A DNA stretch of 64,000 nt, from the NCBI RefSeq assembly GCF_003065605.1, contig NZ_CP026952.1, forward strand, positions 3,100,001-3,164,000. The letters are read 5' to 3'. The notes under the pieces were generated by a model. It saw only the letters and a program-made list of their open reading frames with translations. It did not search any database and had not been told where the DNA came from. Made by a program: the position numbers and the translations under genes. Source of the DNA: Aeromicrobium chenweiae (GTDB lineage Bacteria; Actinomycetota; Actinomycetes; Propionibacteriales; Nocardioidaceae). Shown here in pieces: positions 7,663 to 50,678 of the stretch (positions are counted from its first letter, which is position 1; each line of letters begins with the position of its first letter).

Positions 7663-8052
7663 TCACTTGACGGTGACGCTGGCGCCGGCTGCCTCGAGGG
7701 CATCCTTCGCCTTGTCGGCAGCTTCCTTGTTGGCCTTCTCGAGGACGGGCTTCGGAGCACCCTCGACGAGGTCCTTGGCCTCCTTGAGTCCGAGACCGGT
7801 GATCGTACGAACTTCCTTGATGACCTGGATCTTCTTCTCTCCAGCGCCCTCGAGGATGACGTCGAACTCGTCCTGCTCGGCGGCGGCGTCGTCACCAGCG
7901 GCACCGCCGGCGGCGGGCGCGGCAGCGACGGCAACCGGAGCGGCTGCGGTGACGTCGAACGTCTCCTCGAACTCCTTGACGAACTCGGAGAGCTCGATGA
8001 GGGTCATTTCCTTGAATGCATCCAGCAGATCGCCGGTGCTGAGCTTCGCCAT
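7663..8052 (-). CDS. rplL: 50S ribosomal protein L7/L12
   Basis: This 129-residue stalk protein binds as dimers to L10 and recruits translation factors. It has the expected three parts: an N-terminal dimerisation helix (about residues 1-35), an Ala/Gly-rich hinge, and the conserved C-terminal domain ([25 protein letters not shown]). GGAAGGA lies nine bases before the ATG. It follows rplJ by 57 bp in the standard order. Confidence 0.97.
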
Positions 8053-8109
8053 GGTGGCGTCCTTCCGTTATGAGACCCCGAGGGGGTCCCGATTGGGATA
8101 ATCGGGCTA

Positions 8110-8694
8110 TCAGCCCTCGGTGGTCTCCGCGACTGCGGAGTCGGCCTCGGCGGGTGCCTCGGCCGGGGTGTCTGCGCCCTCGCTGTCGACCTTCGCCTGC
8201 AGGGCACCCAGAACTCGGGCGGCCTGCGACAGCGGGGCCTGGAACAGCGATGCGGCGTTCGACAGGCTGGCCTTCATGCCACCTGCGAGCTTGGCGAGGA
8301 GGACCTCGCGCGACTCGAGGTCGGCCAGCTTGTTGATCTCGTCAGCGGAGAGGATCTTCCCGTCGAGGAAGCCTCCCTTGATGACGAGGGGCGTGTTGGC
8401 CTTCGCGAAGTCACGCAGACTCTTCGCTGCCAGCACCGGATCGCCCTTGATGAAGGCGATCGCGGTCGGACCGGTGAGGAGCTCGGTGTCGAGCTCCACG
8501 CCTGCGTCCTTGGCGGCGATCTTGGTCAGCGTGTTCTTGGCGACGGCATAGCTCACGTCTTCACCGAGAGAGCGGCGCAGTTCCTGCAGCTGCTTCACGG
8601 TGAGACCGCGGTACTCGGTGAGGACAGCGCCGCTCGACTGACGGAAGTTGTCCGCCAGCTCCGCAACAGCGGCTGTCTTTTCCGCGTTTGCCAT
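8110..8694 (-). CDS. rplJ: 50S ribosomal protein L10
   Basis: This 194-residue base of the ribosomal stalk binds 23S rRNA with its N-terminal domain and L7/L12 dimers with its C-terminal helix. The start ATG at 8694 (M-A-N-A-E-K) is preceded by GGAAGGAGA. Longer in-frame extensions cover the leader RNA and are not credible. A C-terminal Ala/Glu-rich tail (about residues 170-194) extends beyond the usual L10 core. Regulation probably runs through the leader described separately. Confidence 0.96.
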
Positions 8695-8895
8695 GGGTCT
8701 CCTTCCAGCACATGGGTCGTACCTAGACTGCGATCCCATGTGCGTACACGGGCCCGACACGAAAAAACGTCCCGGGCACAGGGCCACGGGACGCTGAGTT
8801 GCTGCATCTGAGTCGTGAACCTGCGCGGGCCGCCCTCTCGGGCGCTTCGGGCAGCTCGTGCGAGCTACCTGCCAGCGGTCTTCGGCACGTCCCAG
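8695..8895 (-). promoter_or_regulatory. rplJ leader region (L10 leader-like)
   Basis: The 200 bp before rplJ are rich in secondary structure on the transcribed strand. First comes a GC-rich multi-stem part (about 8820-8880), then an intrinsic terminator at 8762-8793, then a 9-bp hairpin GCACATGGG/CCCATGTGC (8708-8743) ending one base before the Shine-Dalgarno sequence (8697-8707). In many bacteria L10(L12)4 binds the rplJ leader to repress its own synthesis. A comparable autoregulatory leader is likely here, but I have not matched it to a covariance model. Confidence 0.6.
8762..8793 (-). terminator. Intrinsic terminator/attenuator in the rplJ leader
   Basis: A perfect 7-bp stem CGTCCCG/CGGGACG with a 12-base loop is followed on the minus strand by six T residues. 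It lies 68 bases before the rplJ ATG, so it either ends the upstream transcript or acts as an attenuator. It is the only classical U-tract terminator I found in this GC-rich window. Confidence 0.8.
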
Positions 8896-8940
8896 AATAG
8901 GGCACGGACGCGAGGCAACCAAATCGTCGCCCGGCGGGGG

Positions 8941-9773
8941 TCAGACCGAGGCGCCCTTCAGCAGCGTGGACAGGCTCTTGTCGGACAGCTCGTCGGCCGG
9001 CGGCGGGGTGATGTCGACCGGCTCGCCCCACTGGCTGAGGTCGATCGTCCCGGTCATGCCGCCGAAGCCGTACGTCATCCGGCGCAGCAGATCGTCCGGG
9101 CCGAGGAACATCGTGTAGACGAGCGTCTTCGGGATCGTGGACCGCGACGCCTCCGGGAGCTCCGCGAACGCTTCCACGCGGCTCGTGTCGACCGTGACCT
9201 CGTACGGCTGCGCCTGGACCCCGTCGATCGTCTCGGGATCGCCCTTGGCCTCGACCGACGTCACTGCGTCGGCGAGGGCGGTCACCTGCTGGGAGGTGTC
9301 GAGCTGCTCCAGGACGGGTGCCAGCTGCTGGGTGATCGGGTCGCTGGTGTCGGAGAGATCGGCCTTGGCGAACTTCCCCCGGTGAGCGCGCCGAGGTTCA
9401 TGTAGATCTGGCCGTCCACGAACGTCACCTTCATCGTCCCCGGACCGGCCTGGCCGTACTCCATCGTCACCGAGACTGCGTTGTCCTCGGGCTTCTCACC
9501 GGTCTGCTGGTCGCCGGACGCGGTGACCTTCTGGCCGCCGGCCTCGATGACCATCTCCACGTGGCTCGTGCGCGACTTCTGCTGCGCCGTGACCAGCCGC
9601 TCGCTGAAGTTCTTGGCCGTCAGCACGTCGCTCGCCGGGGACGCGGACGCACCGCTGCCAGCCGAGGTCGCCGACCCGTCCGACGCGGTGTCGCTCCCGC
9701 CGCAGGCGGACGTACCGAGGGCGAGGGCCGCCACGGAGGCGACGACGGCGAGCTTCGTGAGGCGCAGCTTCAT
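8941..9773 (-). pseudogene. LppX/LprG-like lipoprotein, frameshifted
   Basis: The N-terminal part (9773 to about 9375) has a lipoprotein signal peptide with lipobox L-G-T-S-A-C-G, then a Ser/Ala-rich linker and an LprG/LppX-like beta-strand region (VTMEYGQAGPGTMKV). The frame is lost at a run of five G on the minus strand (plus 9376-9380). Adding one G restores a single frame of about 277 residues through K-F-A-K-A-D-L-S to the TGA at 8941. Such lipoproteins bind lipids in the cell envelope. The gene sits between rplA and rplJ, where other genomes often have nothing. The break may be a sequencing error. Confidence 0.72.
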
Positions 9774-9886
9774 GGCACCAGCGTATCCGCCGCGACGCGC
9801 GATCGCCTGGGCGAACGACGCCGGCCCCCTGGCGACGCGGTGGGCGTCGCCGGGGGGCCGGCGGGTGGTGCAGGTGGTGCGGAGGC

Positions 9887-10600
9887 TCAGGCCTCGTCGA
9901 CCGCGTAGCTCTTCGTGCGGCTCGGGTCGACCGGGATGCCCGGACCGTTGGTCGTGGAGACCGTGATCTTGCGGACGTAACGGCCCTTCGAGCTGGCCGG
10001 CTTGAGACGCAGGATCTCGTCGAGCGCAGCGCCGTAGTTCTCGGCGAGCTGCTCGGCGGAGAACGACGCCTTGCCGATCACGAAGTGCAGGTTGGCGTGG
10101 CGATCGACGCGGAACTCGATCTTGCCGCCCTTGATGTCACCGACGGCCTTGGCGACGTCGGGCGTGACCGTGCCGGTCTTCGGGTTCGGCATCAGGTTGC
10201 GGGGGCCGAGCACGCGGCCCAGGCGACCGACCTTGCCCATCATGTCCGGCGTCGCGACGACGGCGTCGAAGTCGAGCCATCCCCCGTTGACCTTGTCGAC
10301 CAGCTCGTCGGCGCCGACGTAGTCAGCGCCGGCCTCGCGGGCGGCCTCGGCGTTGGCGCCGGTGGCGAAGACCAGGACCCGTGCGGTCTTGCCCGTGCCG
10401 TGCGGAAGGTTGACGGTGCCGCGCACCATCTGGTCGGCCTTGCGGGGGTCGACACCGAGCCGGACGGACACGTCCACGGTCGAGTCGTAGTTCTTGCTGC
10501 CGGCCTCCTTGGCCAGGTTGGTGGCCTGGAGGGGGGTGTACAGGCTGTTCTTGTCGATCTTCTCGGCGACCTCGCGGTACGCCTTGCTGTGCTGTGCCAT
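9887..10600 (-). CDS. rplA: 50S ribosomal protein L1
   Basis: This 237-residue L1 protein is the two-domain stalk that helps release E-site tRNA. The conserved [14 protein letters not shown] motif is present, together with the N-terminal region [10 protein letters not shown]. It lies 92 bp downstream of rplK. L1 often represses the rplK-rplA mRNA, but I did not identify an operator here. Confidence 0.97.
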
Positions 10601-10692
10601 CTCTGGTCTTCCTTCGTGTGTGTGAACCAGTCGTGGTCGGTACGGGCCCAGCCGGCCCTGCCACTAGTGGTGCGTAAAAGAGCTGGTGGAGA

Positions 10693-11121
10693 TCAGTCCG
10701 TCGTGACGCCCATCGAGCGCGCAGTGCCCTCGACGATCTTCATGGCGGCGTCGATGTCGGTCGCGTTCAGGTCCGGCAGCTTGGTCGTGGCGATCTCGCG
10801 GATCTGGTCCTTCGTGATCTTGCCGACCTTGTCCGTGTGCGGGACGGCCGAACCCTTCTGCAGACCGGCAGCCTTCTTGATCAGCTCGGCCGCGGGCGGC
10901 GTCTTGGTGACGAAGGTGAACGTGCGGTCTTCGTAGATCGTGATCTCGACCGGGACGACGTTGCCACGCATGGCTTCTGTGGCCGAGTTGTAGGCCTTGC
11001 AGAACTCCATGATGTTGACGCCGTGGGGGCCGAGCGCGGTACCGACGGGCGGTGCCGGGTTGGCCATACCGGCCTGCAGCTGCACCTTGACGATGGCTGC
11101 GACTTTCTTCTTGGGAGGCAT
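10693..11121 (-). CDS. rplK: 50S ribosomal protein L11
   Basis: This 142-residue protein forms the GTPase-associated centre with 23S rRNA and is needed for RelA-type stringent signalling. The sequence shows the N-terminal [22 protein letters not shown] proline-rich switch and the C-terminal rRNA-binding domain. It follows nusG by 63 bp in the standard secE-nusG-rplK-rplA order. Confidence 0.97.
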
Positions 11122-11184
11122 TTCTCGGGTCCTTGACTGATGGTTGGTGCGGTGTAGTGAACCGGTTGGCTCAGACTTGCTGGC

Positions 11185-11973
11185 TCAGACCTTCTGGATC
11201 TGGGTGAAGCTGAGCTCGACCGGCGTTTCGCGGCCGAAGATCTCCACGAGGGCCTTGACCCTCTGTGCATCGACGTTGATCTCGGTGATGGTCGCGTGCA
11301 GCGTGGCGAACGGTCCATCGACGACCATGACGGAGTCGCCGACCTCGAAGTCGGAGAACTCGACCTTGGCGGCCTTCGTCTGCTGCTGGTCGGGGGCGTC
11401 CGCCGCGGTTGCGACTTCGGCCTCCACTGCCGGGGCGAGCATGCTCTCGACCTCGGCAAGACTGAGGGGGACGGGCTGGTGGGAGTTGCCCACGAAGCCC
11501 GTGACGGACGGCGTGTGGCGGACGACGCCCCACGACTCGTCGGTGAGGTCCATGCGGACCAGGACGTAGCCGGGCAGGACGGTGCGCTTGACGAGCTTGC
11601 GCTGACCGTTCTTGATCTCGGCGACCTCTTCGGTCGGGACGACGACCTCGTAGATGTAGTCCTCGGCGTTCAGCGAGGTCACCCGGTTCTCCAGGTTCGA
11701 CTTCACCCGCTTCTCCATGCCGGAGTAGGTGTGCACCACATACCAGTCGCCGACCTGGTTGCGGAGGCGGTCCTTGAACTCCTGGAGCACGTCGACGACG
11801 GGCTCCTCGGCGTCGTCGGCGTCCGCGGCCTCGACAGAGTCGTCGACGTCGGCCTCGTCAGCCGTGGTGTCGACCTCGTCGGTCGCCTCCGGGGCTTCAG
11901 GCGCGTCGACATCGGTCGCGTCGGACTGCGCGTCCGCGTCGACGTCGATGTTCTCTTCGTAACCTTGAGTCAC
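11185..11973 (-). CDS. nusG: Transcription termination/antitermination protein NusG
   Basis: This 262-residue protein binds RNA polymerase and couples it to Rho or the ribosome. An acidic N-terminal extension of about 75 residues (rich in Asp, Glu and Ala) precedes the NGN domain ([21 protein letters not shown]). A Gln/Ala-rich linker leads to the KOW domain ([15 protein letters not shown]). The acidic extension is common in actinobacterial NusG and absent from E. coli NusG. It lies 18 bp after secE. Confidence 0.96.
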
Positions 11974-44857: not shown

Positions 44858-45391
44858 TTACCCTCCAGCGTCGGGTCCCATACGACGATCCGTCCCTCGC
44901 AGCTGCGCGGAGCGGCGGACCAGCAGGGGGACCGCAGCGACGACCCCGACGACGAGCGCGACCCACCTGACCCACGGGGCGTACGTCCATCCGAGGGCGT
45001 GGTCCAGGGAGATCTCCCCCGGTCCGGTGAGGACGAGCACGGCGGCCGTGCCCGCATACACGAACGCGACCTCGTACCCGCCGAGGTGCGCCCACAGGCC
45101 GTGGGAGAAGTTCGCGGACGCCGCGACGATCATCGTGCCGATGGCCACCGCTCCGCCCAGGGGCGTCAGCAGCCCGAGTGCCAGCAGCGTCGCCGCGACG
45201 GTCTCGGACACCCCGGCCATGACCACCATGGGAGGTCCCGGCGAGAAGCCCAGGGACTCGAAGTGCGTGCCGGTCCCGGCCACCCCCATGCCGCGGAACC
45301 AGCCGAAGAGCTTCTGGGTCGCGTGACCGAGCAGCAGCAACGCGAGCATGACCCGCAGCGCCAGCAGCCCCAGGTCGAGCGTGTCGGTCAT
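44858..45391 (-). CDS. DoxX family membrane protein
   Basis: This 177-residue four-helix membrane protein of the DoxX/DoxD-like family has LLLLGHATQKLFGWFRGMGVAGT in the first helix region and later helices ending in a basic tail (LLVRRSAQLRGTDRRMG). Family members accompany oxidative or thiol metabolism, but the biochemical role is unsettled. Its start overlaps the dioxygenase stop (ATGA). Confidence 0.8.
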   Translation of the reverse strand: MTDTLDLGLLALRVMLALLLLGHATQKLFGWFRGMGVAGTGTHFESLGFSPGPPMVVMAGVSETVAATLLALGLLTPLGGAVAIGTMIVAASANFSHGLWAHLGGYEVAFVYAGTAAVLVLTGPGEISLDHALGWTYAPWVRWVALVVGVVAAVPLLVRRSAQLRGTDRRMGPDAGG

Positions 45392-46245
45392 GACGGCTGG
45401 AGCACGAAGTCGAACTCTGCGGTGACGAACGGGCGGTCGAGGGAGGTGCCGTCCGGGGCCGGACCGCCCTCGTGCGCCGTGAACGGGGTGATGAGCGCCT
45501 CCTTGGTGCCGAAGACGACGTCGGACTCGATGTAGCGCGTCCCCTCCTCGAAGATGTGGGTCACGAGGCGCTCGTAACCGTCCTCCTCCAGCAGGAAGTG
45601 GATGTGCGCGGGCCGGAAGTGCCCGATGTCGGTCCGGGAGATCAGATCGCCGACCGTGCCGTCCATGGGGATCGAGTAGCCCAGTGGGACGATGCTGCGC
45701 ACGCAGAAAGTGCCGTCCTCCCCGGTCACGTACTTCGCCCGCAGACGGGCCTCGTCGAGCTCGCCGATCTGGGACTCGTACAGGCCGTCGGCGTCGGCCT
45801 GCCAGACGTCGAGCACCGCGCCGCTGATCGGCGTGCCGTCGACGGAGGTCACCTGGCCGGTCACGAAGAACGGCACGCCCTCGATGCCGTCGGACATGTC
45901 GTGCCCGTACGGCACGCTCGGCGAGCCGTCGATGTGGAACGGGCCGAGCACCGTGGCGGGTGTCGCGGCGTCCTGGAAGTGGTGGTTCATCTGCACGACG
46001 AGCATGCTGAGGCCCAGGACGTCGGAGGCGAGGATGAACTCCTCGCGCTTCTCGTCGCTGATCTGGCCCGTACGCGTCAGCCACTGCATCGCGGCCATCC
46101 ACTCGTCCTCGGTGAGCCTGACCTCCCGCGCGAAGTCATGCAGATGCTGCACGAGCCCCGTCATCAGCTCGGCCAGGCGGGGCGTGTCGGCCGTGCCCCA
46201 GCGCCGGACCGCCAGGTCGGTGATGTTGTCCTCAGTGGCGAACAT
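45388..46245 (-). CDS. Intradiol dioxygenase, hydroxyquinol 1,2-dioxygenase type
   Basis: This 285-residue non-haem Fe(III) enzyme opens the ring of hydroxyquinol (or a catechol) between the two hydroxyls. Iron ligands fit Tyr in DADGLYESQ, Tyr in PLGYSIPMDG, and the two His in RPAHIHFLL. The N-terminal dimerisation helices (about residues 1-95) and length match hydroxyquinol dioxygenases. Catechol or chlorocatechol 1,2-dioxygenase is the alternative. No maleylacetate reductase lies in the window. It overlaps the citryl-CoA-lyase-like gene by 14 bases. Confidence 0.85.
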   Translation of the reverse strand: MFATEDNITDLAVRRWGTADTPRLAELMTGLVQHLHDFAREVRLTEDEWMAAMQWLTRTGQISDEKREEFILASDVLGLSMLVVQMNHHFQDAATPATVLGPFHIDGSPSVPYGHDMSDGIEGVPFFVTGQVTSVDGTPISGAVLDVWQADADGLYESQIGELDEARLRAKYVTGEDGTFCVRSIVPLGYSIPMDGTVGDLISRTDIGHFRPAHIHFLLEEDGYERLVTHIFEEGTRYIESDVVFGTKEALITPFTAHEGGPAPDGTSLDRPFVTAEFDFVLQPS

Positions 46246-47047
46246 CGGATCCTCCGTTCTCGGGTTCGACAAAGACGGCGTTGTTCTCGATGAGCAGGTA
46301 GGCGTCCATGGCCATCGGGCGCCGTCGTTCCTCCGCGATCTGGCCGAGCAGGCCCGCCGTGCGGGCGAGCAGGGCGAAGCCGCGGAGCAGCTCGACGGGC
46401 AGGTCGAGGTCGGCCAGCGCCGCGCCGACGACGCCGGCACCGTTGAGCACGAGCCGCCGGCCGAGGATGTCGGGGTGGACGCGACCGATCGCGAGAAACA
46501 GCTGCAGGTGCGGGCCGTACGTCCCCTCCTCCTTCGCGATCTGCACCAGTGCGGGCGTGCGGGGGTCCTCCTGCTTGTGCACCGGGTGCCCGAGCCCGGG
46601 GATGATCGCCTTGCGGGCGCGCTCGCGGGTGACGATCTCGCGCGCCAGGGCGTCCCAGTCCCCGTCGGACTCCGGGAGGGTCTCGAGCGCCCGGATCTCC
46701 CGGTCGAGGAACTGGCCGCAGTCCTCGGTGACGCCCAGGAACCGGGACCCGCCGCCGAGCAGCCCGGCCGCGAGAGCTCCCTGGAGCGAGTCCGGGGCGC
46801 TCAGGTAGGTCATGCGCGCCGCGATCGCGGTCGGGGTGAAGCCGTGGTCGGCGAGGGCCAGCAGGCACGCGTCGAACACCCGCACCTGGCCCGGTGTGGG
46901 CCGCTGCTGCGTCACGAGCCAGAACGCCATCTCGCTGAACCCGACCTGCCCCATCAGCTCGGTGCCGAGATCCTTGCCGAGCAGCGAGATCGTGGACGTC
47001 GTCGACATCCCCAGCGAGGTGGGGAAGGACGGTACGGAGTCGGTCAT
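46232..47047 (-). CDS. Citryl-CoA lyase-like protein (citrate synthase superfamily)
   Basis: This 271-residue protein is shorter than citrate synthase (about 370-430). It keeps the large-domain pattern: FSEMAFWLVTQQRPTPGQVRVFDACLLALADHGFTPT, GLLGGGSRFLGVTEDC, IIPGLGHPVHKQEDPR (His) and NGAGVVGAALADLDLPVELLRGFALLARTAGLLGQIAEE. This form is annotated as citryl-CoA lyase and should cleave or form a C-C bond of a CoA ester. The ATG at 47047 overlaps the CoA-transferase stop. Confidence 0.8.
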   Translation of the reverse strand: MTDSVPSFPTSLGMSTTSTISLLGKDLGTELMGQVGFSEMAFWLVTQQRPTPGQVRVFDACLLALADHGFTPTAIAARMTYLSAPDSLQGALAAGLLGGGSRFLGVTEDCGQFLDREIRALETLPESDGDWDALAREIVTRERARKAIIPGLGHPVHKQEDPRTPALVQIAKEEGTYGPHLQLFLAIGRVHPDILGRRLVLNGAGVVGAALADLDLPVELLRGFALLARTAGLLGQIAEERRRPMAMDAYLLIENNAVFVEPENGGSDVRH

Positions 47048-48201
47048 CGGGTTCCCTTCGCCCAGGCGCGGATGTCGTCGTCGTGCTGGCCCAGGCGGGG
47101 CGGTGGCAGGTCGTACCGCGCCTCGTCGCGCGAGAACCGGATCGGGTTGCGGATGCTGGGCACGGCGGCCGGGCCCTCGCCGACCTCGACCACCGGCTCG
47201 AGGCCAAGCGACCGGGCGAACTCGACGCCCTCGGCGATCGAGTTGATGGGGGCCGCCGCGACGCCGGCCTTCACCAGGACGTCGAACCACTCGGCCTTGG
47301 TGCGCTCGCGGAGACGGTCCTCGAGCAGGGGCCGCAGCTCGTCCCGGTTGGCGGTGCGGTCGCGGTTGGTCGCGAAGCGCGGGTCGCCGGCCAGCTCGGG
47401 CACGCCGAGCGCCTCGCACAGCCGGGCGTACTGGCCGTCGTTGCCCGCGATGATGATGATGTCCCCGTCGGACGCAGGCAGCGGCTCGTACGGGAACAGG
47501 CTCGGGTGGGCATTGCCCATGCGGTGCGGGACGGTGTCCCCCGCGACGTACGCGCCGGTCTGGTTGACCAGGCCCGACAGCGCCGACGACAACAGGTTGA
47601 CCTCGACGTGCTGGCCGCGCCCGGAGGACCCGCGGGAGTGCAGCGCGGACAGGATGCCGATCATGGCGTGCATCCCGGTCATGACGTCGAAGACCGAGAT
47701 CCCGGCCCGGTACGGCGGTCCGTCGGGTGAGCCCGTGAGGCTCATCAGGCCCGAGATCGCCTGGACCATCAGGTCGTAGCCGGGGATGTGCGCGCCGTCG
47801 CCGGTGCCGAAGCCGCTGATGGAGGCGTAGACCAGCCCGGGGTTGCTGCTCGCGACGGTCTCGTAGTCCAGGCCGAAGCGGGCCAGCCCGCCCGGCTTGA
47901 AGTTCTCGACCATGATGTCGGCGCGGTCCGCGATCTGCCGCGCCACCTCCAGATCGTCCTCCCGGCGCAGGTCGAGCGCGATCGACCGCTTGTTGCGGTT
48001 GATGCTCAGGTAGTACGTCGACTCGTCACCGCGCGTGGGCGGCACCCAGGTCCGGGTGTCGTCCCCGCCCGGGCTCTCGATCTTGATGACGTCCGCGCCG
48101 AGGTCGGCCAGCAGCATCGTGGCGTAGGGACCGGCGAGGATCCGGGAGAAGTCGGCCACGACGAGACCGCTCAACGGCCCCGGGGTCGGACTGGCAGGCA
48201 T
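47044..48201 (-). CDS. CaiB/BaiF family CoA-transferase
   Basis: This 385-residue class III CoA-transferase moves CoA between acids. The N-terminal LVVADFSRILAGPYATMLLADLGADVIKIESP and NRNKRSIALDLR are family signatures. The catalytic Asp fits GYDLMVQAISGLMSLTG. It is the first gene of the five-gene catabolic operon and faces the amidohydrolase across a shared promoter region. It probably activates an acid for the lyase encoded next. The substrate is not known. Confidence 0.88.
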   Translation of the reverse strand: MPASPTPGPLSGLVVADFSRILAGPYATMLLADLGADVIKIESPGGDDTRTWVPPTRGDESTYYLSINRNKRSIALDLRREDDLEVARQIADRADIMVENFKPGGLARFGLDYETVASSNPGLVYASISGFGTGDGAHIPGYDLMVQAISGLMSLTGSPDGPPYRAGISVFDVMTGMHAMIGILSALHSRGSSGRGQHVEVNLLSSALSGLVNQTGAYVAGDTVPHRMGNAHPSLFPYEPLPASDGDIIIIAGNDGQYARLCEALGVPELAGDPRFATNRDRTANRDELRPLLEDRLRERTKAEWFDVLVKAGVAAAPINSIAEGVEFARSLGLEPVVEVGEGPAAVPSIRNPIRFSRDEARYDLPPPRLGQHDDDIRAWAKGTR

Positions 48202-48218: not shown

Positions 48219-48356
48219 CGGACGTTTGTCCGTTCAATCTGGACGACTGACTCAGAACTGTCAAGGGTGGGTTTTTGCGACCGCAGACCCCTTGACACGT
48301 GGCCGGGCCCACATTGACGATGACCTCATTGCGCATCGCAACGGACACTCGTCCGT
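48219..48356. promoter_or_regulatory. Divergent promoter region with duplicated palindrome
   Basis: CGGAC-GTTT-GTCCG (48219-48232) and CGGAC-ACTC-GTCCG (48342-48355) flank two outward promoters. The plus promoter is TTGACA (48292-48297)-N18-GACGAT (48316-48321). The minus promoter is TTGACA (complement of 48259-48264)-N17-CAGATT. Each palindrome lies just beyond its promoter's -10. A second palindrome TTGCG-CAT-CGCAA lies at 48329-48341. IclR encoded nearby is the likely ligand-dependent regulator. Confidence 0.75.
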
Positions 48357-49874: not shown

Positions 49875-50678
49875 GTGGTCACGCGCGGCAGTGGTCCTGA
49901 CTTCATCGAGGCAGTGGCCCGGGGGTTCGACGTCGTCAGGACGTTCACGCCGGAGTCGCCGACCCTGACCCTGTCGGAGGTGGCCGCCCGCACCGACCTC
50001 TCCCGGCCGACGGCCCGGCGGATGCTGCTGACGCTCATGGAGCTGGGGTACGTCCGCGAGTCGCCGGCCGGCTTCTGCCTGACCCCCCGCGTGCTCGAGC
50101 TCGGGCTCACCTACATCCAGTCCCACGGCCTGTGGGACCTGGCGCGGCCCCACCTCGAGTCACTCGTGTCGCGGACCCACCAGTCCTCGTCGATCGCCCA
50201 GCTCGACGGATCGGACATCGTCTACGTCGCGCGCGTCGCGGTGCCGAAGATCATCTCGCTGGCGGTCTCGATCGGGACGCGCTTCCCCGCGGTCTCGACG
50301 TCGTTGGGCCGCGTGCTGCTGGCCGACCTGCCCCCGGACGAGCTGGAGGTCGCGCTGTCCGAGCCGAGCAGGTCGGGCATCGAGCCGCGCTACGTGCCGG
50401 ACGACGAGGAGCTGCAGGTGCTTCTCGCGCAGACCCGCGCCCGTGGCTGGGTGATGACCGACGAGCACCTGGCCGGCGGCATCCGCTCGATCGCGGCACC
50501 TGTCCGCGACGGCAGCGGCGCCGTCATCGCCGCGACGAACGTGACGGTGCACGCCGCCGAGATCTCGGTCGAGACCCTCACGGACGAGTTCCTCCCCCAG
50601 CTGATCCGCACCGCCGGCGACATCAGCGCCGACGTCGTGTCGATCGACCGGATCCCCCAGGTCATCGCACCGCGCTGA
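49875..50678 (+). CDS. IclR family transcriptional regulator (PcaR/PcaU-like)
   Basis: This 267-residue regulator starts with GTG (V-V-T-R-G-S). It has a winged helix at about residues 12-75 (LTLSEVAARTDLSRPTARRMLLTLMELGYV) and an IclR effector domain whose DIVYVARVAVPKIISLAVSIGTRFPA stretch resembles the beta-ketoadipate regulators PcaR/PcaU/PobR. Aromatic-acid sensing is therefore plausible. It is cotranscribed with the amidohydrolase and is the best candidate for the palindromes at 48.2-48.36 kb. Confidence 0.88.
   Translation: MVTRGSGPDFIEAVARGFDVVRTFTPESPTLTLSEVAARTDLSRPTARRMLLTLMELGYVRESPAGFCLTPRVLELGLTYIQSHGLWDLARPHLESLVSRTHQSSSIAQLDGSDIVYVARVAVPKIISLAVSIGTRFPAVSTSLGRVLLADLPPDELEVALSEPSRSGIEPRYVPDDEELQVLLAQTRARGWVMTDEHLAGGIRSIAAPVRDGSGAVIAATNVTVHAAEISVETLTDEFLPQLIRTAGDISADVVSIDRIPQVIAPR

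Follow-up and report, generated by a model that had tools for sequence, protein, structure and literature searches.

The divergent region between a CoA-transferase gene and an amidohydrolase gene of Aeromicrobium chenweiae raises the question of whether a palindrome that occurs in it twice, CGGAC-N4-GTCCG, is an operator, which protein would bind it, and whether it ties the two flanking transcription units to one pathway. The window analyzed here is a stretch of 64,000 nucleotides (contig NZ_CP026952.1, positions 3,100,001 to 3,164,000), and coordinates are given within it. A first-pass annotation had proposed that both units are jointly repressed, probably by the IclR-family protein encoded next to them. 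The comparison of related loci supports this proposal in most parts. The two dyads are likely to be IclR operators, through which both units and the iclR gene itself would be repressed locally until a compound of the pathway lifts the repression; the probability of this reading is estimated at roughly 85%.

The left unit is encoded on the minus strand. It begins with a class III (CaiB/BaiF-type) CoA-transferase (47044-48201), followed by a citryl-CoA-lyase-like protein with the citrate synthase fold (46232-47047; NF004868, 277 bits, above the cut-off), whose closest solved structure is the citryl-CoA lyase 6hxp. The third gene encodes an intradiol dioxygenase (45388-46245), closest to hydroxyquinol 1,2-dioxygenases (3n9t, 1tmx), and the last one a small DoxX-like membrane protein (44858-45391), a label given by sequence reading, not by family search. 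A homologue of the DoxX-like gene adjoins the intradiol gene in five other loci (L073, L075, L151, L153, and L154). The right unit, on the plus strand, begins with an amidohydrolase of the ATZ/TRZ-like group (PF01979; 48378-49859), related to atrazine-type hydrolases and deaminases. Another Pfam01979 protein, KpiC, was reported to be a ring-opening dioxygenase acting on 3,4-dihydroxypyridine (PMC7356986), and therefore the reaction of the amidohydrolase is not to be assumed. The second gene encodes the IclR-family regulator (49875-50678), which has the Pfam domains HTH_IclR and IclR_C (PF09339 with 61.5 bits and PF01614 with 119 bits, both above the cut-off). It is PcaR/PcaU/PobR-like; its score against TIGR02431, the model of this subfamily, is 256.8 bits, under the cut-off of 284.75, which makes it a close relative and not a member. 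Since iclR starts only 15 bp downstream of the amidohydrolase gene, the two are probably co-transcribed, and iclR is probably self-regulated.

Exactly two exact copies of CGGAC-N4-GTCCG are present in the whole window, and both are inside the 176-bp intergenic gap between the ATG of the minus-strand CoA-transferase (48201) and that of the plus-strand amidohydrolase (48378). The left putative operator, CGGACGTTTGTCCG (48219-48232), precedes the CoA-transferase operon; it is 17 bp from the CoA-transferase ATG and overlaps the predicted transcription start. The right putative operator, CGGACACTCGTCCG (48342-48355), precedes the amidohydrolase-iclR unit and ends 22 bp before the amidohydrolase ATG, within the predicted 5' leader. 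Their start-to-start distance is 123 bp, as described earlier. When the gap was shuffled with dinucleotides preserved, just 2 of 4000 randomized sequences had any 5+5 dyad in duplicate. Across the 3.72-Mb genome there is no enrichment of the word, with 15 exact copies against 13 of the reversed control pattern; the single word means little, while the pairing does mean something. With a motif model derived from related loci, the two dyads of the window obtain the two highest scores (23.2 and 21.7) among these 15.

The promoter of the CoA-transferase operon (48236-48264, minus strand) consists of a -35 box TTGACA (48264-48259) and a -10-like CAGATT (48241-48236), and that of the amidohydrolase-iclR unit (48292-48321, plus strand) of a -35 box TTGACA (48292-48297) and a weak -10 around 48315-48321. 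Both outward TTGACA boxes fall within a 9-bp inverted repeat, CCCTTGACA. Promoter calling returned no promoter in the gap, the -10 boxes being poor when scored by the Escherichia coli consensus; the assignment is based on the sequence and on the layout of -35, -10, and operator, which is kept in relatives. Counted from the first base of the respective -35, the left dyad starts 32 nt downstream (about -3 to +10) and the right dyad 50 nt downstream (about +14 to +27). The corresponding distances in relatives are mostly 31-45 nt on the CoA-transferase side and usually 36-40 or 53-58 nt on the amidohydrolase side. These boxes and offsets agree with the earlier description of each dyad as lying downstream of an outward promoter, over or near the predicted start. 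That the putative operators follow the -10 and are located at the transcription start or immediately beyond it is what would be expected of a repressor, and this position fits a blocking of transcription.

For comparison, relatives of the amidohydrolase were taken from the window's family and from species genomes. Most of them have an IclR orthologue, a CoA-transferase gene, and a citryl-CoA-lyase-like gene nearby in varied order, and apart from the nearest relative the IclR orthologues are mostly 55-68% identical. In an unbiased count of dyads over 97 divergent gaps, CGGAC-N4-GTCCG ranked first with 96 of 97, against about 1 expected after shuffling (4-mer core). The 80 loci from species genomes contain 149 exact dyads and 4 copies of a control dyad. 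When the 30 permutations of the half-site were compared at the same spacing between half-sites, CGGAC was found near the amidohydrolase or the CoA-transferase gene in 77 of the 80 loci, and the others in 0-7 of 80. The left dyad is kept at the same position in 97 CoA-transferase leaders, and the right dyad is conserved in 85 amidohydrolase leaders.

The dyads move with the leader genes through rearrangements, which matches one operator per transcription unit. Divergent CoA-transferase/amidohydrolase loci usually contain two dyads. Where iclR is inserted between the units, one dyad precedes the amidohydrolase gene and the other is between iclR and the CoA-transferase gene, and in a locus with all genes on the same strand (L125), one dyad precedes each leader gene. 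The fused operons of L153 and L154 have a single dyad, before the CoA-transferase gene; those of L142-L145 combine CGGAC-N4-GACCG with a third CGGAC. The second dyad of L147 and L148 is in front of the LigB and amidohydrolase genes. The existence of fused operons, in which both units are served by a single operator, supports the earlier suggestion that the two units belong to a common pathway. Another copy of the operator is located close upstream of the LigB start at L069:4431, which suggests a separate operator for LigB in this locus.

The dyad also follows the IclR orthologue. It is found near a leader in all 76 loci from species genomes whose genome has an IclR orthologue. In the four loci where the orthologue was not detected, the dyad is absent from three (L056, L105, and L124) and present in one (L058), giving a Fisher p of 5e-5 for the co-occurrence, a value that ignores shared ancestry. 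L105 and L124 are also without the CoA-transferase gene, and thus L056, which keeps the amidohydrolase, CoA-transferase, citryl-CoA-lyase-like, and LigB genes and has neither IclR orthologue nor operator, is the only clean natural control. IclR orthologues that stand apart carry a dyad about 160-180 bp upstream (L156-L159), and further examples with their own upstream dyad are L047, L061, L090, L098, L121, L122, and L160. Upstream of paralogues with 43-48% identity, no dyad was found in any of the 10 loci examined. One metagenome-assembled genome (MAG; G007/G295, loci L018, L058, and L152), rated 97% complete, has the operator with no IclR orthologue detected, which reflects a gap in the assembly or else a true exception.

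In most relatives, the site is larger than the dyad. Aligned by gene direction, the amidohydrolase leaders have GACCG-N5 before the dyad (61 of 85, up to one mismatch to GTCCG allowed), and the CoA-transferase leaders have N5-CGGAC after it (78 of 97 with at most one mismatch, 52 exact). The three-box forms are GACCG-N5-CGGACA-N2-TGTCCG or CGGAC-N4-GTCCG-N5-CGGAC, and with the A/T conserved at the inner positions the dyad grows to 6+6 around a center of 2 nt. The inverted boxes with this 2-nt center, within the 1-2 nt typical of group 2, together with the third box in relatives, which makes up a group 1 pair, correspond to the operator architecture of the IclR family. Both sites of the divergent relatives have their third box on the flank that faces the CoA-transferase gene, and therefore the full operators share one orientation on the chromosome. 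The symmetric layout described by the first-pass annotation thus applies to the promoters, which are mirror images, but not to the operators, which are asymmetric three-box sites in relatives. The window itself has GATCG (left) and CGCAT (right) at the canonical third-box positions, neither matching CGGAC or GACCG, and the third box is not recognizable in a locus of the same genus (L017) either. Judged by these sequences, the third box is lost in the subclade of the window, and the two-box part is kept.

Three-box sites of IclR proteins were described by Suvorova and Gelfand (PMC8222616). The PobR motif, TTGTCCGATSATCGGACAR (PMC8222616), contains the same GTCCG-N5-CGGAC pair as the three-box operators of the relatives, and the half-sites GTCCG and CGGAC and the N5 spacing are shared with PobR and PcaU of Acinetobacter baylyi and with other three-box IclR sites. 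The three-box architecture of PobR, PcaU, and HmgR (PMC8222616) is that of most relatives, while the window keeps only the pair typical of group 2. The IclR group 2 motif, TGRAACA-N1-2-TGTTYCA (PMC8222616), has the same geometry as GGACA-NN-TGTCC, with inverted boxes and a 2-nt center, although its core is the AT-richer GAAC instead of CGGAC. The genes are of aromatic catabolism, as for PobR and PcaU, but the targets differ from pob and pca. The designation of the adjacent IclR protein as the probable regulator is strongly supported by the conservation of the dyad, by its co-occurrence with the orthologue, and by the three-box form.

The following mechanism is proposed. A dimer or tetramer of IclR would bind 48219-48232 and 48342-48355, and the bound protein, covering each transcription start or the sequence right behind it, would block RNA polymerase. 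The operon of the CoA-transferase, citryl-CoA-lyase-like, and hydroxyquinol-dioxygenase-like genes and the amidohydrolase-iclR unit would be repressed together, and iclR would repress itself because it lies in the right unit. A substrate or intermediate of the pathway, probably aromatic or N-heteroaromatic, would bind the C-terminal domain of IclR and derepress both units. Of the joint repression claimed before, the joint control is supported by the conservation of the sites and by their movement with the leader genes; the physical binding of IclR, its repressing instead of activating role, and the inducer are inferred. Each unit has a site to itself, and looping between the two would be unnecessary.

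Such a DNA loop was considered separately and rejected: the two sites show 35 distinct spacings between 94 and 192 bp, with no helical periodicity (scan p = 0.99). With every locus counted there is an apparent phasing, which is due to spacings that recur, probably among close relatives.

Among the alternatives, the one that survives best, although we consider it unlikely, keeps the same operators and the same IclR protein, but as an inducer-dependent activator, or as activator and repressor, like PobR and PcaU. These two best-known relatives are activators, and the sign in this system could therefore differ. By NCBIfam, the nearest subfamily of the protein is PcaR/PcaU/PobR, and the operator half-sites match those of PobR. 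An activator normally binds upstream of the promoter or over it, whereas in nearly all loci here the sites come after the -10, which suggests repression.

It is quite improbable that the operators belong to another regulator, such as a protein of the TetR type whose gene is located elsewhere. Short GC-rich palindromes are typical of other repressor families too, and the MAG mentioned above has the site with no IclR orthologue detected. This alternative is opposed by the dyad in 76 of 76 loci with the orthologue and its absence from three of the four without, by the sites in the own promoters of apart-standing IclR orthologues, and by the IclR three-box form of the motif.

Even less credible is an action of the palindromes in the transcript, where hairpins of 5 bp in the two 5' leaders would affect stability or translation. 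The transcripts probably include both sites, and a short hairpin can form from CGGAC-N4-GTCCG; the predicted folds, however, are little or no better than those of shuffled sequences (z of 0.08 and -1.0), a 6+6 dyad with 2 nt between is too tight for an RNA loop, the GACCG variant of the fused operons would give an A-A mismatch in the stem, and a third box at a fixed 5-nt spacing is a feature of a DNA motif. That two palindromes with no relation to each other ended up in the same GC-rich gap by chance, a reading for which only the lack of genome-wide enrichment could speak, is refuted by the conservation in 96 of 97 gaps and by the half-site permutations.

Within this genome, the IclR regulon is probably local, aside from the candidate sites L015 at the chromosome end and L012. 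The genome-wide motif search, which had been recommended as a check, points to a local regulon with one or two candidate sites besides. A genome-wide regulon was rejected: most of the other 13 exact dyads are inside reading frames with a strong GC3 signal, and all score lower. L015, close to where the chromosome record ends, is a high-scoring copy, GACGGACGTGTGTCCGTC (G000:C1:3717233-3717246), with a motif score of 20.7.

A third palindrome, TTGCGCATCGCAA (48329-48341), abuts the right dyad and had been included in the proposed layout. It is present, but outside the conserved system. The pattern TTGCG-N3-CGCAA occurs three times in the genome, this copy included, and its exact form was found in only 2 of the 97 gaps, the window included, and not in the same-genus locus L017. 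This lack of conservation rules it out as a conserved second operator, and it is probably incidental. It resembles the TphR operator of Comamonas, TTTTTGCGCATAGCGCAAAAA (PMC8222616), but is shorter at the center and is not conserved even within the genus.

The regulation by itself is nothing unusual, being a local IclR switch whose architecture has been published; the attached pathway is more interesting. In the 80 species-genome loci, the ring-cleavage slot is occupied by an extradiol LigB-type enzyme in 65 and by an intradiol hydroxyquinol-dioxygenase-like enzyme of the window type in 8, and never by both. With somewhat less than even odds, we suggest a dedicated IclR regulon for an uncharacterized actinobacterial ring-cleavage pathway, in which the amidohydrolase, the class III CoA-transferase, and the citryl-CoA-lyase-like protein are constant and the ring-cleaving enzyme is interchangeable. 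If true, this would imply a polyhydroxylated ring whose two modes of cleavage converge on one CoA-activated intermediate. No paper describing the regulon was found in the literature searches; the orthologous group of this IclR protein may already be included among the 1340 IclR proteins and predicted sites tabulated in the supplement of PMC8222616. With these results, the operator and regulator of a gene set that is conserved in many Actinobacteria become testable, and the conserved operator can serve as a simple reporter for screening inducers. It also defines a parts list of the pathway, including occasional extras such as the ABC transporter of L115.

In L115, two further copies of the operator, one of them a full three-box site, are located downstream of the amidohydrolase gene (L115:7572-7705) and precede a set of Peripla_BP_4, ABC_tran, and BPD_transp_2 genes (7780-11494), possibly a transporter of the pathway substrate. 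Homologous transporter genes are found downstream of the amidohydrolase gene in L124 (7735-11200), with no operator, in a genome without the IclR orthologue. In L056 (3246-5885), an aconitase-family gene is directly upstream of the amidohydrolase, CoA-transferase, citryl-CoA-lyase-like, and LigB genes, which hints at citrate-like chemistry.
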